NCBI GenBank assembly: GCA_947378965.1
Contig: CANCMG010000032.1
Coordinates: forward strand, 1 to 41,447
Source of the DNA: Alcaligenaceae bacterium
GTDB taxonomy: Bacteria > Pseudomonadota > Gammaproteobacteria > Burkholderiales > Burkholderiaceae_B
Direction: 5' to 3'
DNA: 41,447 nucleotides
Positions 15,288 through 25,468 of the stretch are shown in pieces. A model generated the notes under the pieces. That model had not been told where the DNA came from, ran no database searches, and saw only the letters and a list, made by a program, of their open reading frames with translations. The translations under genes were made by a program, and so were the position numbers. The number at the start of each line of letters is the position of its first letter. The first letter of the stretch is position 1.

Positions 15288-16289
15288 TTAGTCAAATTTG
15301 ATGTTGGCAGCTTTTAAAACAGCCCCCCATTTTTTGATTTCACTAGTCGTTAAGTTACCTAAATCTTCAGGCGTGCCTGGCGCGGGTGAAGCCCCCTGCT
15401 GGGCGAATTTTTCTTGTAAGTCAGGCAGGGCCAAGGCTTGATTGGTGGCGGCGTTGAGGGCCTTGATGACTGCCATGGGCGTGCCAGTTGGCGTAAACAA
15501 CGCAAAGTAAGACGTCACGCTAAAGCCGGGTATGCCCGCCTCGGCGATTGTTGGCACATCGGGTAACGCGGCGATCCGAGTAGGCCCGGTGATGCCTAGT
15601 GCGCGTACATTGTTGGCCTTAATCTGAGCCATTGCTGTGGGCAGATTATCAAACATCATTTCAATGTGCCCGCCCATCAAATCGGCCATTGCAGGAGTGC
15701 TGCCTTTATAGGGCACGTGCACCATATTGACTTGCGCCATATAGTTAAACAATTCGCCGGCCATGTGTAAAGAGGAGCCAGCACCCGCTGAGGCAAATGA
15801 TAGTTTGCCTGGCTCTTTCTTGGCCAAGGCAATCAGTTCTTGAATATTTTGTGCGGGTAATTTTTTGGTGACGATCAAGACGTTGGGTGCGTGTGTCACT
15901 AAGGCAACAGGTGCAAAATCGCGGACAAAATCAAATGGTAGTTTGCGCTCGGCTGCCTGGTTGACTGGGTTATTGAGCGAACCAAGGTAAAGTGTCAGGC
16001 CATCTGGTGTCGAACGTGCGACCTCAGCGGCTGCGATGTTGCCGTTGGCACCCGGTTTGTTTTCAACGATGACAGTTGCCTGCAGAATAGGCCCGATTTT
16101 TTCGGCGATGCTGCGTCCGATGCTGTCTGAGGTTCCTCCGGCTGGAAACCCGATCAATAAACGAATCGTCTTACCGGACAGTATAGAGGTGGCGTTGTTG
16201 CCTTGAGTCGTTTGTGCTGTCACCGTCAAACTCACCGCGCCTAGCACGAGGGACAGCAGGGCAGTCGTCACGCTTTTATGTAAAAACAT
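15288..16289 (-). CDS. Bug/TctC-family substrate-binding protein (copy 3)
   Basis: A 333-residue Bug receptor. The start ATG 16289 has AGGAGA at good spacing. The signal peptide ends near LTVTAQ. Family segments: LLIGFPAGGTSDSIGRSI, VIVENKPGANGNIAAAEV, DGLTLYLGS, FASAGAGSSLHMAGELF, HVPYKGSTPAMADLMGGHI. It is the last gene of the minus-strand run that starts at 22281, 22 bp after the acyltransferase gene. The 165 bp downstream, up to the convergent amidohydrolase, shows no strong terminator. Confidence 0.93.
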   Translation of the reverse strand: MFLHKSVTTALLSLVLGAVSLTVTAQTTQGNNATSILSGKTIRLLIGFPAGGTSDSIGRSIAEKIGPILQATVIVENKPGANGNIAAAEVARSTPDGLTLYLGSLNNPVNQAAERKLPFDFVRDFAPVALVTHAPNVLIVTKKLPAQNIQELIALAKKEPGKLSFASAGAGSSLHMAGELFNYMAQVNMVHVPYKGSTPAMADLMGGHIEMMFDNLPTAMAQIKANNVRALGITGPTRIAALPDVPTIAEAGIPGFSVTSYFALFTPTGTPMAVIKALNAATNQALALPDLQEKFAQQGASPAPGTPEDLGNLTTSEIKKWGAVLKAANIKFD

Positions 16290-22791: not shown

Positions 22792-23763
22792 TTACAGCGC
22801 GATCCCCTCGTGCGCGGCGATGAGTTCAAGTGCGTGCTCGAACAGTGCGCGCGCTTGACCCGACACTTCGGCTAAATGCTCATGCAATTGTTGGTCTGCT
22901 GAATTTTTGTTTAAACACTCTTGGCTGTATTGCTCAAAACTTGACAACTGTGTCAGCAGTTCAGCGACATGGCGCGGGCATTCGCATAGGACTGCGGTTG
23001 AAATATTTGCTACCCGCGAAAGGGTTTCATCAGAATATTTTTTTGGTGTTGCCTTTCGACCTGTGGGTGGTGTGGCTGAAGCTCGCAGAGCCTGTTCAAG
23101 ACTGGCGTTGCGAACCCACTCGCTGAGCTCTGCGTCTGAGATTGAATCTTTACGCACCGTCATGCCGGCATTGCTGAGCGTTTGCAGATTACTGCTTGCA
23201 CCATACACATACAACAACAGAGTATGGGTTGCGCGACTGCTGCGCACAAAGTCAAGCAGCTCTGAAACGGTGCTCTCTTGAATCGTATTCAGGCGAATCA
23301 AGAGCAGATCAGCGGGCGCGTGTTCAGGCGCTGCGCGCGCTGCTGCCAGATCTGAGAAAACCTTGGCACGCTCGCTGTGTTCTGCAAAGAGCCCGAGTTT
23401 GTGACGGGTTGCCCCTAGCCGTTGTGCCAATCCTGTGCCGACAACACATGCGCTTAGCGGCCGTGCTTGGGTGGGGGTTCGCTGCAGGGCTGATGCCGAC
23501 AGCCCTTGGGTATGTAAGAGTTGCAGTTGCATGCTATCAAGCAGGGCGATGCCACTGACTGCGTGCCCCTGTTCGCTGAGCTGTTTGAACAACGTGGCGC
23601 GCAACACGTCGTCTTGACCATACAGCCGGTGCTGACCATGCGTTTTAGTGGGTGCAAACGCCCGATAACGTGTCTCCCAGATGCGCAGGGTGGTGACGGG
23701 TACATTGGCGAGCTTAGACACCGCGCCAATACGGTAGAAGAGAGGTGGGGCGATAGAGGGCAT
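22792..23763 (-). CDS. MerR-family regulator with degenerate B12-binding-like C-terminus
   Basis: A 323-residue regulator. Residues 10-80 form the MerR winged-helix domain (YRIGAVSKLANVPVTTLRIWETRY, QHRLYGQDDVLRATLFKQL). The C-terminal 200 residues replace a metal-sensing loop with an alpha/beta region: ACVVGTGLAQRLG, GLFAEHSERAKVFSDLAAA, ADLLLIRLNTI, HTLLLYVYGASSNLQTLSNAGMTV. This alternates like the Rossmann part of the cobalamin domain of CarH/LitR photoregulators. However, the ExHxxG cofactor His motif is not visible, so B12 binding is doubtful. It is divergently oriented to the winged-helix/TIGR03643 genes across a 157-bp AT-rich region with repeated motifs, its likely operators. Confidence 0.85.
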   Translation of the reverse strand: MPSIAPPLFYRIGAVSKLANVPVTTLRIWETRYRAFAPTKTHGQHRLYGQDDVLRATLFKQLSEQGHAVSGIALLDSMQLQLLHTQGLSASALQRTPTQARPLSACVVGTGLAQRLGATRHKLGLFAEHSERAKVFSDLAAARAAPEHAPADLLLIRLNTIQESTVSELLDFVRSSRATHTLLLYVYGASSNLQTLSNAGMTVRKDSISDAELSEWVRNASLEQALRASATPPTGRKATPKKYSDETLSRVANISTAVLCECPRHVAELLTQLSSFEQYSQECLNKNSADQQLHEHLAEVSGQARALFEHALELIAAHEGIAL

Positions 23764-23796
23764 AAATATAAGTAAAATTTAATTTGAATAGGATTT

Positions 23797-23845
23797 GAGT
23801 AGATTATAATGAAAATATTTATAAAATGTTGTAAATAATCTACTC
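23797..23845. promoter_or_regulatory. Inverted repeat in divergent promoter region, candidate operator
   Basis: GAGTAGATTA (23797-23806) and TAATCTACTC (23836-23845) form a perfect 10-bp inverted repeat with a 29-bp AT-rich spacer. The arms lie upstream of both divergent genes, 34 bp from the MerR start and 76 bp from the winged-helix start. The wide spacer suits two bound dimers or DNA looping rather than a single MerR dimer on a 19-20-bp spacer. Confidence 0.6.
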
Positions 23846-23888
23846 ATTCTTTGGTTTTTATCTAAATTATTGATGTGAAAGTGTTAAT

Positions 23889-23899
23889 TTCTACTCATT
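23889..23899 (+). promoter_or_regulatory. Third copy of the TCTACTCATT motif
   Basis: TTCTACTCATT here matches the right arm at 23839-23848 (TCTACTCATT), 51 bp away (about five helical turns). It lies 22 bp before the winged-helix ATG, where a repressor would block transcription or translation. Confidence 0.5.
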
Positions 23900-23920: not shown

Positions 23921-24388
23921 ATGCTGTCGAACAGAGCTTTAAGTGCCTTAAACGCCACCGTTTTTATTGCAGCAAAAGGGCACCAGCACCCTCCAACCAC
24001 CCGAGAGCTATCCGCAGCCTTAGGCCTGTCGGTATCGTCGTTACACGGCATGCTTAAACTGCTCGACGATCACGGTATTGTCCGGTCGTTCAGGGGGGCC
24101 GAAAAGCGTTACGAAATCAAAGCCGATCTGACTACAACGACGGCCTGGGATGTTGTGCAAATTTTTGAAGATCCGCATCCCCCAGTTGCCCAAAATGCGA
24201 AAGAAAAAGAGACGGCCTCCTACGAGTACGAGAATACCTATTGCGAACTGCTGAAAGATTTTTTAGCGTCGCAAAAAATCAGTGATCAAATTGCTGGAGT
24301 GAGTGCGATTGCAAGCGCGAGTGCAAGTGCAAGTGCAAGTTCGAGTGCGAGTTCGAGTTCGAGTTCGAGTGCTGTTGCATGGGCCTGA
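23921..24388 (+). CDS. Winged-helix DNA-binding protein with Ser/Ala hexanucleotide tail
   Basis: A 155-residue protein. Residues 5-68 form a winged helix-turn-helix resembling the Rrf2/LexA N-terminal type: TTRELSAALGLSVSSLHGMLKLLDDHGIV followed by a wing RSFRGAEKRYEI. No Cys cluster of the Fe-S Rrf2 type is present. An acidic linker (about 75-125) leads to a tail, residues 131-150, that is purely Ala/Ser and encoded by ten hexanucleotide repeats. The gene is divergent from the MerR regulator and overlaps the next gene by 10 bp. It is probably a local transcription factor in the same circuit. Confidence 0.75.
   Translation: MLSNRALSALNATVFIAAKGHQHPPTTRELSAALGLSVSSLHGMLKLLDDHGIVRSFRGAEKRYEIKADLTTTTAWDVVQIFEDPHPPVAQNAKEKETASYEYENTYCELLKDFLASQKISDQIAGVSAIASASASASASSSASSSSSSSAVAWA
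24311..24370 (+). repeat. Ten-copy hexanucleotide microsatellite
   Basis: Ten consecutive 6-bp units of the form GCAAGT, GCGAGT or TCGAGT, each encoding Ala-Ser or Ser-Ser. Units are in frame, so copy-number change would alter tail length without shifting the frame. Confidence 0.9.
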
Positions 24389-24678
24389 AAGAGTCACTGA
24401 CTGAGGCTGAGCGGTCACGACTCATCGAGATGGCGTGGGAAGACCGAACTCCTTTCGAAATGATTCGTTTGCAGTACGGCCTCACTGAGGCCTCGGTGAT
24501 TGATTTTATGCGTAGCAACATGAAAAAGAGTTCGTTTAGGATGTGGCGAAAAAGAATGAATGGGCGTCTGACGAAGCACCTGAGCTTGAAAAGTTCTTCA
24601 ACAGGCTTCAATCACGTCATCAGCGACGCAGCGTTAAACAAAAAAGCTCGAAAGGGCATGGTCGGGGTGATGAAGTGA
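24379..24678 (+). CDS. TIGR03643 (DUF2805-type) family protein
   Basis: A 99-residue cytoplasmic protein recognised as TIGR03643. It has the conserved Trp/Met-containing core LTEAERSRLIEMAWEDRTPFEMI, then LQYGLTEASVIDFMRSNMKKSSFRMWRKRMNGRLTKH. The first half resembles a small HTH (sigma-like or transposase-like), so nucleic-acid binding is plausible but unproven. The tail after residue 72 is basic and less conserved. ATG 24379 lies inside the end of the winged-helix gene (10-bp overlap), and the stop overlaps the next start as GTGA. This shows a tightly coupled three-gene unit. Confidence 0.87.
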   Translation: MGLKESLTEAERSRLIEMAWEDRTPFEMIRLQYGLTEASVIDFMRSNMKKSSFRMWRKRMNGRLTKHLSLKSSSTGFNHVISDAALNKKARKGMVGVMK

Positions 24679-24848
24679 GTGAAGATCTGAGATGTTGCGG
24701 TTCGGGTACTTGCATTATTAACCTTGAAGGGCTGTGTTGGTGTGGCCAACAGTGGGATGGCCAACAGATGCGTCACCAACCGATTGATTCACCCTTGAAA
24801 TCGACAAAATGCGCAGACGATTTAGGTGCCAACGCATCGAGCGCCTGA
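24675..24848 (+). CDS. Cys-rich microprotein, 57 residues
   Basis: A short ORF starting at GTG 24675, whose GTGA overlaps the TIGR03643 stop, a classic coupling arrangement. The N-terminal 32 residues carry a dense Cys pattern: RCCGSGTCIINLEGLCWCGQ, then QWDGQQM. The five Cys are at positions 7, 8, 13, 21 and 23. The CC-x4-C-x7-C-x-C spacing suggests a metal or Fe-S site. The rest (33-57) is antisense to the end of the SDR gene and looks unconstrained apart from one further Cys. That the ordered core stops just where the convergent gene begins supports a real gene. I have an impression of similar short proteins in Burkholderiales but cannot name a family. Confidence 0.62.
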   Translation: MSEDLRCCGSGTCIINLEGLCWCGQQWDGQQMRHQPIDSPLKSTKCADDLGANASSA

Positions 24849-25468
24849 AGCAACCCGTCGACTGATTCACCCACCGGGGTGCAGTGATCGGGCGTCGCAA
24901 AGGGTTGAGATAAAGGCGACGCAACCGTACCGGGTTGTAGCGCTGCCAAAATCGCTTGTGGATTTTTACGCGCAAATTCGATGGCAGCGGTTTGCAAAAA
25001 CATATTGACTGCGGCTTTCGATGCCCGGTAGCCGTACCATCCACCTTTAGAGTTGTCGCTGATGCTACCTACACGGGCAGACAGTTTGGCGTAAATGGCT
25101 CGCTCTCGTGCTAGCAGAGGCAAGAAATATTTGAGTAACAGAGCGGGGCCGATGGCGTTGACTTGAAAACTGCGCATGAGTCGCGTTGCGTCGAGAGCCC
25201 CTAAGTGCTTTTCAGGGCCCTTACCCTCAATGGTTAAAGCCCCCGTGGCATCAATGATTAGTTGGAAAGGCCCTGACGCAGAACAGTGCGCAGCGGCTGC
25301 CGCCAAGCTCGCTTCGTCTTCTAACGCAAATCCAGGTGTGTCGCGTCTTGAAACCTCAGCGACCAGCGCACAGTTAGGATCTTGGTTCAGTGCCGCAACA
25401 AAACCGGCCCCGATCGTACCGGTCGAACCAATAACTAGTGCGCGATAAGTTGAACCCAAGGATTGCAT
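24773..25468 (-). CDS. Short-chain dehydrogenase/reductase (C-factor/CsgA-like)
   Basis: A 231-residue SDR. The cofactor loop ALVIGSTGTIGAGF (about 10-23) is the TGxxxGxG variant, IIDATGAL stands in for NNAG, and the active site is seen as Ser in LSARVGSISDNSKGG and the YxxxK pair in WYGYRASKAAVNMF. The short length and PGTVASPLSQPF loop fit the CsgA/C-factor-type subgroup. Such SDRs recur beside photolyase and stress genes in proteobacteria, but the substrate is unknown. It converges on, and overlaps by 76 bp, the Cys-rich microprotein gene. Confidence 0.88.
   Translation of the reverse strand: MQSLGSTYRALVIGSTGTIGAGFVAALNQDPNCALVAEVSRRDTPGFALEDEASLAAAAAHCSASGPFQLIIDATGALTIEGKGPEKHLGALDATRLMRSFQVNAIGPALLLKYFLPLLARERAIYAKLSARVGSISDNSKGGWYGYRASKAAVNMFLQTAAIEFARKNPQAILAALQPGTVASPLSQPFATPDHCTPVGESVDGLLQALDALAPKSSAHFVDFKGESIGW

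Follow-up and report, generated by a model that had tools for sequence, protein, structure and literature searches.

A conserved cysteine-rich microprotein of Burkholderiales and phages, putatively metal-binding and probably associated with light-damage genes

Introduction

Among described systems, the class II LitR cluster of Pseudomonas mendocina is one of those closest to the locus analyzed here: the available passages of its description place photolyase, short-chain dehydrogenase (SDR), FAD oxidoreductase, and hypothetical genes in the pmlR1 region and report that genes near pmlR1 are light-induced (PMC9758184). Genes for a MerR regulator, photolyase, SDR, FAD oxidoreductase, and folate functions recur around the microprotein described below, whereas those passages name no Cys microprotein, and the published operator is of the TGTACA-N12-TGTACA type, in contrast to the TGAGTAG repeats of the promoter studied here (PMC9758184). 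The family TIGR03643/DUF2805 (PF10985) is the direct operon neighbor of the microprotein in the clade of our locus and recurs in its neighborhoods; however, the 2 proteins have no family model or resemblance in common, and their presence and absence are independent. Members of Cys_rich_CWC (PF14375) are likewise small, Cys-rich bacterial proteins with a CWC preceded by another Cys, but the 5 members seen have a CxxC before and a CxCxxC after the CWC, neither of which occurs in the microprotein. Literature searches found no papers on TIGR03643 or on strings of the core motif; the available passages on DUF2805 hold no functional data, and the entries returned by wider searches contain nothing on the Cys microprotein. 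Three further papers (PMC5241685, PMC11417400, PMC10872708) give background on light-response or photolyase genes, with the Cys microprotein absent from their available passages.

Our starting point was a 41,447-nt stretch of DNA from an Alcaligenaceae bacterium (contig CANCMG010000032.1; hereafter the window), in which a sequence-only reading had singled out a short Cys-rich frame, suggested that it has a metal or Fe-S site, and proposed that it acts with TIGR03643.

Results and discussion

The microprotein gene and its conserved core

Table 1. Features of the microprotein locus, in coordinates of the window
Feature	Position	Strand	Remarks
Divergent MerR-type regulator (PF13411)	22792..23763	-	Putative LitR/CarH-like, from N-terminal domain and context
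Inverted repeat TGAGTAG-N37-CTACTCA, MerR/HTH divergent promoter	23796..23846		Further CTACTCA at 23891-23897
HTH regulator, Rrf2-like (PF02082), with Ser/Ala-rich repeat tail	23921..24388	+	Heads the three-gene run
TIGR03643/DUF2805 (PF10985) gene	24379..24678	+	Upstream of the microprotein, GTGA overlap
Cys-rich microprotein gene	24675..24848	+	GTG start, 57 aa, TGA stop; orthologues with ATG at this position; dN/dS
Conserved 32-residue core, xxxDxRCCGSGxCIIxxxGxCWCGQxWDGxxM	24675..24770	+	Alignments of 40 and 46 members; 130 distinct motif-selected cores; motif-missed sequences checked
Non-conserved tail	24771..24848	+	Antisense to the SDR 3' end
Convergent short-chain dehydrogenase (PF00106)	24773..25468	-	Best NCBIfam match PRK09009, below cut-off

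The frame had been described as a 57-codon unit with the spacing CC-x4-C-x7-C-x-C that starts at the TIGR03643 stop, and both sequence and translation (VSEDLRCCGSGTCIINLEGLCWCGQQWDGQQMRHQPIDSPLKSTKCADDLGANASSA*, 57 aa) bear this out. The GTGA at 24675-24678 supplies the GTG start of the microprotein and the TGA stop of the gene at 24379-24678, which scores 103.2 bits against the TIGR03643 cut-off of 66.55. The core was also correctly placed close to the convergent SDR gene, its methionine M32 ending at 24770, 2 nt short of the end of that gene. In aligned loci of relatives an ATG occupies exactly the place of the window's GTG, which supports the assigned start; of 113 family ORFs (97 distinct proteins), 108 begin with ATG, 3 with GTG, and 2 with TTG when the start is set at the closest candidate codon in the stretch 4 to 13 codons ahead of the CC. 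Past M32 the tail is different and variable in relatives that lack the SDR overlap, and therefore lies outside the conserved unit. By itself a 57-codon open frame is little evidence; conservation lifts the microprotein above chance, and it is almost certainly a real gene.

Thirteen positions are invariant over 40 members (D4, R6, C7, C8, G11, C13, C21, W22, C23, G24, Q25, W27, and G29), and all of these except G11 are invariant over 46 members including phage copies. The CX4CX7CXC pattern (C8, C13, C21, and C23) is retained in all full-length cores inspected, including those of motif-missed sequences; the collection scans were seeded on Cys-containing patterns and are thus biased against showing Cys loss, and the family and order profile searches impose no Cys pattern. 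C7 and Q25 are changed in L165/L191, which are the same place in one genome fetched twice, and the core of L239 is visible from C13 onward only.

The core is under purifying selection. Median dN/dS (Nei-Gojobori) was 0.040 in the window's clade (11 distinct cores, 44 of 55 pairs usable), 0.062 in the genus (24 cores, 101 of 276 pairs), 0.114 over all bacterial copies (108 cores, 2406 of 5778 pairs), and 0.110 over the usable pairs of 22 phage cores, with saturated pairs and pairs with zero synonymous differences omitted, duplicate cores and sequences missed by the regular expression dropped, and Cys partly enforced by that expression. Variation at codon position 3 is 3 to 6 times that at positions 1 and 2.

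Distribution among bacteria

Used as a query, the core was recovered from 25 of the 32 genus genomes. Profile searches gave 14 matches at E ≤ 0.01 in 200 genomes of the family, all but one of which reached E ≤ 5.3e-16. In 399 genomes of the order Burkholderiales they gave 27 at E ≤ 0.01, of which 20 reached E ≤ 1.4e-18 and are counted as carriers; the 7 weak matches (E 1.8e-5 to 0.005, 5 with an internal stop) are excluded. The window's own match was the sole strong one among 369 genomes of the class, and all 5 strong matches among 398 genomes of the phylum fell within the window's order. The plasmid and cultured-phage collections gave no match to the microprotein.

Scanning of named genomes confirmed at least 298 of 590 stretches among the matches listed, and 80 named loci were kept. 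Among the matches listed, these loci come from Limnohabitans, Rubrivivax, Rhodoferax, Polaromonas, Hydrogenophaga, Aquabacterium, Zwartia, and others; Zwartia hollandica lies within the genus, as L050 and L093 are identical over 1.5 kb. Carriers also appear to include Methylopumilus-like (1.3 Mb) and Polynucleobacter-like (1.7-2.1 Mb) genomes. The family adds an unmodelled component to the gene repertoire of lake bacteria, Limnohabitans and Zwartia among them and, presumably, also Polynucleobacter and Methylopumilus-like bacteria with genomes of only 1.3 Mb. Three loci (L071, L073, and L074) are titled as a Bordetella parapertussis metagenome-assembled genome, yet resemble the Zwartia-like genus, and the species label looks mis-assigned.

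Family models, predicted fold, and a putative metal site

The microprotein represents a previously unmodelled family with a core of about 32 residues rich in Cys, Trp, and Gly and a variable tail. For 40 members neither Pfam (best E 0.02; DUF5522 not among the matches) nor NCBIfam (best 0.066) gave a significant match, and 2 phage members had no match in PHROGs and 2 members none in PADLOC. EGF_Teneurin was touched by 20 of the 40 members (best 0.022) and EGF_2 by 7 (best 0.02); at E ≥ 0.02, kinship with either was dismissed as Cys-rich noise. Membership in Cys_rich_CWC was dropped as well, with no Pfam match to it in 40 members at E ≤ 1 and a profile-profile alignment (hhalign) of probability 21.6 spanning 9 columns of the CWC stretch alone. 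A profile search of PDB sequences retrieved only the CWC/WxG stretch of IGFBP1 (E 0.13), which we judged to be chance.

AlphaFold predicts 2 short strands (residues 25-27 and 32-34), and mean pLDDT is 64 for the whole protein and 74 for the core alone; a model of such moderate confidence is too weak for placing a metal. A Foldseek search with the 40-residue core model found no match among solved folds at E ≤ 0.001. At least 4 Cys are conserved at fixed spacing, as in Cys-ligated metal-binding miniproteins. The metal or Fe-S site proposed by the sequence-only reading is plausible, and the microprotein probably binds a metal.

Bacterial neighborhoods and the divergent promoter

In the window the adjacent genes are those for MerR, HTH, TIGR03643, and SDR only, and the FeS-type (6-4) photolyase gene of the same genome (PF04244) lies on another contig. 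The HTH regulator owes its Ser/Ala tail to tandem repeats of 6 to 18 bases at 24301-24372, just ahead of the TIGR03643 overlap; among relatives the tail varies in length and sequence (139 to 155 aa). The promoter boxes are kept in 9 aligned loci (first box 9/9, second 8/9 with L070 differing, third 9/9), and much of the sequence between them varies. TGAGTAG-N25..50-CTACTCA has a single exact site in the whole genome, which suggests local control, probably of the divergent MerR/HTH pair. The class II LitR operator T(G/A)TACA-N12-TGTA(C/T)A is absent from this promoter; the window holds one match with 2 mismatches, at 15746, against a chance expectation of 2.6.

Neighbor counts rest on tblastn (E ≤ 1e-8), because antisense ORFs seemed to arise when ORFs were called greedily in high-GC loci. 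Across the 80 named loci we counted MerR in 24, TIGR03643 in 16, photolyase in 15, SDR in 13, DCC1 in 13, DUF2237 in 12, SOUL in 12, and DPRP in 10; in 40 control windows of 10 kb, drawn from carrier genomes with Comamonadaceae hardly sampled, MerR occurred in 0 and photolyase in 1. Half of the named loci (40 of 80) and 12 of the 19 loci from the genome samples had at least one of 8 marker families (MerR, TIGR03643, photolyase, DPRP, DUF2237, SOUL, DCC1, and COG3380-like) versus 1 of 40 controls, although most markers were chosen for recurrence in the same loci and neither loci nor genomes are phylogenetically independent. For this reason the test was repeated outside the genus with the 4 markers derived from the window, which gave 21 of 69 loci versus 1 of 40 controls, the control match being an SDR. 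COG3380-like, FolB, ChrR-like cupin, AlkB-like, and DUF4864 genes, taken singly, showed no significant enrichment over controls in the 80 loci. MerR regulators with photolyase-type genes nearby, as in light-inducible LitR-type clusters, recur among the named loci.

The other 40 named loci have none of the 8 markers within up to about 6 kb a side. Eighteen of these (L105 and 17 others) are Limnohabitans-type loci with other shared neighbors, including an MFS transporter (Pfam on one) and what we take to be a xanthine-dehydrogenase-like gene. Polynucleobacter-like genomes have FolB and SDR genes near the microprotein, along with others that presumably encode a COG3380-like oxidoreductase, a ChrR-like cupin, and an AlkB-like protein. 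In 4 of the 113 ORFs the core is extended in frame by another domain, namely SOUL (L097 by Pfam; L081 by similarity), flavin amine oxidoreductase (L088), or DUF4864 (L095); the SOUL and DUF4864 domains follow a signal-like stretch, so that internal starts may be used. Taken together, the microprotein is very probably associated with light-damage genes, including those for LitR-like MerR regulators, photolyases, SOUL, flavin oxidoreductase, and DUF2237.

A proposed role and the FeS-type photolyase

We tentatively favor the view that the microprotein is a Cys-ligated, metal-binding accessory to the response of Burkholderiales to photo-damage, also carried by phages, with metal and mechanism both conjectural. 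The core would most likely fold around one metal ion, with Zn2+ favored and Fe or Fe-S possible; C8, C13, C21, and C23 would be the ligands and C7 a near-invariant fifth thiol. In Burkholderiales it would most likely serve the response to light and photo-oxidative damage, perhaps as a small metal-dependent adaptor or a redox-sensitive accessory to light-stress machinery, and its gene may itself be light-induced. Adaptor-type action is conceivable but on the unlikely side. The family gains a concrete hypothesis centered on light and photo-oxidative damage.

A rather unlikely alternative ties the microprotein to the FeS-type (6-4) photolyase: it would deliver, protect, or repair the Fe-S cluster of this enzyme, which would explain why the two travel together. 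PF04244 was matched in 19 of 20 carriers, the exception being G512 (89% complete), versus 4 of 26 non-carriers (in one of them a partial match), in a comparison that is uncorrected for kinship among genomes and omits 14 non-carriers picked for TIGR03643. The 26 were chosen outside the family and order matches, and one of them (G039) has TIGR03643. The enzyme gene also lies close to the microprotein in several loci (e.g., L102 and L175), and the PF04244 protein of L132 matches FeS-BCP enzymes in the PDB by sequence (PhrB, 4dja, E 1e-159; CryB, 3zxs, 9e-152). An Agrobacterium photolyase-like protein contains an Fe-S cluster, according to the available passages of its description (PMC3204975). 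However, all 14 of the TIGR03643-picked non-carriers have PF04244, so that the enzyme occurs without the microprotein, and no PF04244 gene was found in 29 viral loci tested with flanks of at most 3 kb a side. The enzyme is linked to TIGR03643 as well: PF04244 was present in 27 of 27 TIGR03643-positive genomes tested, and the 2 matches lie within 100 nt of each other in G294, G439, G553, and G602. This adjacency and co-occurrence provide a lead to the function of DUF2805.

Phage copies

The core is encoded on 43 IMG/VR viral contigs (L197-L239), although several are near-duplicates and L207 looks bacterial. Genes for the T4 capsid protein Gp23 are found on 4 of the 43 (289, 220, 357, and 111 kb), and contigs without Gp23 may be fragments. 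RIIB lies beside the microprotein in L199, and QueE-like and exonuclease genes are nearby in L197. Near the microprotein we found ClpP in 18 viral loci, Band_7 (HflC/prohibitin-like) in 13, and Bax1-I (YccA-like) in 11. The viral microprotein is often just upstream of ClpP and downstream of Band-7 or Bax-inhibitor-like genes; in 10 loci the ClpP match begins right where the microprotein ORF finishes. Ten loci share a gene cluster of which one representative is a GTP cyclohydrolase I. Light-cluster markers occurred in none of the 29 of 43 viral loci tested, with flanks of at most 3 kb a side. The phages presumably live in freshwater, and freshwater T4-like phages would thus appear to carry the core as well, often in a proteostasis-type gene block. 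Since viruses carry the microprotein too, both the host and the phage side can be tested with cultured hosts.

On a bolder and unlikely view, the core defines a new metal-binding family common to freshwater bacteria and T4-like (including jumbo) phages that connects protein quality control with the light-damage response: host cells would use it to protect or turn over photodamaged proteins, and phages would carry a copy, along with ClpP, Band-7, and Bax-inhibitor-like genes, to hold that system in check in sunlit water. Quite improbable is the proposal that the core is an adaptor or inhibitor of Clp or FtsH-type proteases, acting in photodamaged hosts and during phage takeover. The viral gene counts given above speak for it, and Band-7 and YccA-type proteins modulate FtsH in Escherichia coli. 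Against it, 18 of the 43 viral loci have none of the 3 genes and several contigs are near-duplicates, gene order in phages says little about function, and PHROGs also groups this ClpP-like protein with head maturation proteases.

The metal-binding accessory role that we favor has a further competitor, in which the microprotein is a sacrificial or redox-active thiol peptide that quenches singlet oxygen or peroxide without a metal. Its core is rich in Cys and Trp, the DCC1 genes counted among the named loci are thiol-oxidoreductase-like, and L175 has a gene that we take to be MsrA-like. The invariant Gly, Asp, Arg, Gln, and Trp and the exact Cys spacing point instead to a fold and a binding surface, which leaves the thiol peptide distinctly improbable.

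Relation to TIGR03643

Conservation of the frame and of its Cys spacing beside TIGR03643, on which the sequence-only reading had staked its case, was found in related genomes. TIGR03643 is present in 28 of 61 genomes (the window's own and relatives), at 29 loci, and 17 of these loci carry the motif; in 16 no more than about 110 nt separate its start from where the TIGR03643 profile match ends, and in L012 the distance is about 1.1 kb, a candidate match in L018 having been set aside as false. The GTGA overlap is not fixed: gaps between the 2 genes run from -8 to +29 nt across 19 pattern-caught rows, some of which are one locus fetched twice. Among the 25 carriers of the genus, on the contigs covered, the microprotein adjoins TIGR03643 in 16 and lies elsewhere in 8, and G009 (76% complete) has no TIGR03643 match. 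In terms of co-occurrence, 24 of the 32 genomes of the genus have both genes, 3 only TIGR03643, 1 only the microprotein, and 4 neither.

The proposal that the microprotein acts with TIGR03643 stands in part. In the order sample TIGR03643 occurs in 12 of 20 carriers versus 31 of 379 other genomes, which makes a shared pathway likely but not an obligate partnership. A dedicated TIGR03643 partner is very improbable: it would account for the close coupling, by GTGA or a short gap, seen in the window's clade and for the co-occurrence in genus and order, but 8 of the 20 carriers have no TIGR03643 match (E ≤ 0.001), 9 of the other 12 have it at least 17 kb away or on another contig, G009 keeps the microprotein with no match to it, and it is found in none of 29 viral loci tested with flanks of at most 3 kb a side. 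As for a spurious open frame kept only through overlapping genes, which the shortness of the microprotein and the overlap of its tail with the SDR gene might suggest, its probability is negligible, as the core shares no more than the 4-nt start overlap with TIGR03643 and does not reach the SDR gene, is kept in phages as well as in unrelated contexts, and shows median dN/dS values of 0.04 to 0.11.

In G009, the microprotein seems to be continuous, in frame, with preceding codons that resemble the TIGR03643 start (L049, 489-716; MGLKSPLTEDLRCCG), as if the rest of TIGR03643 had been removed by a deletion.
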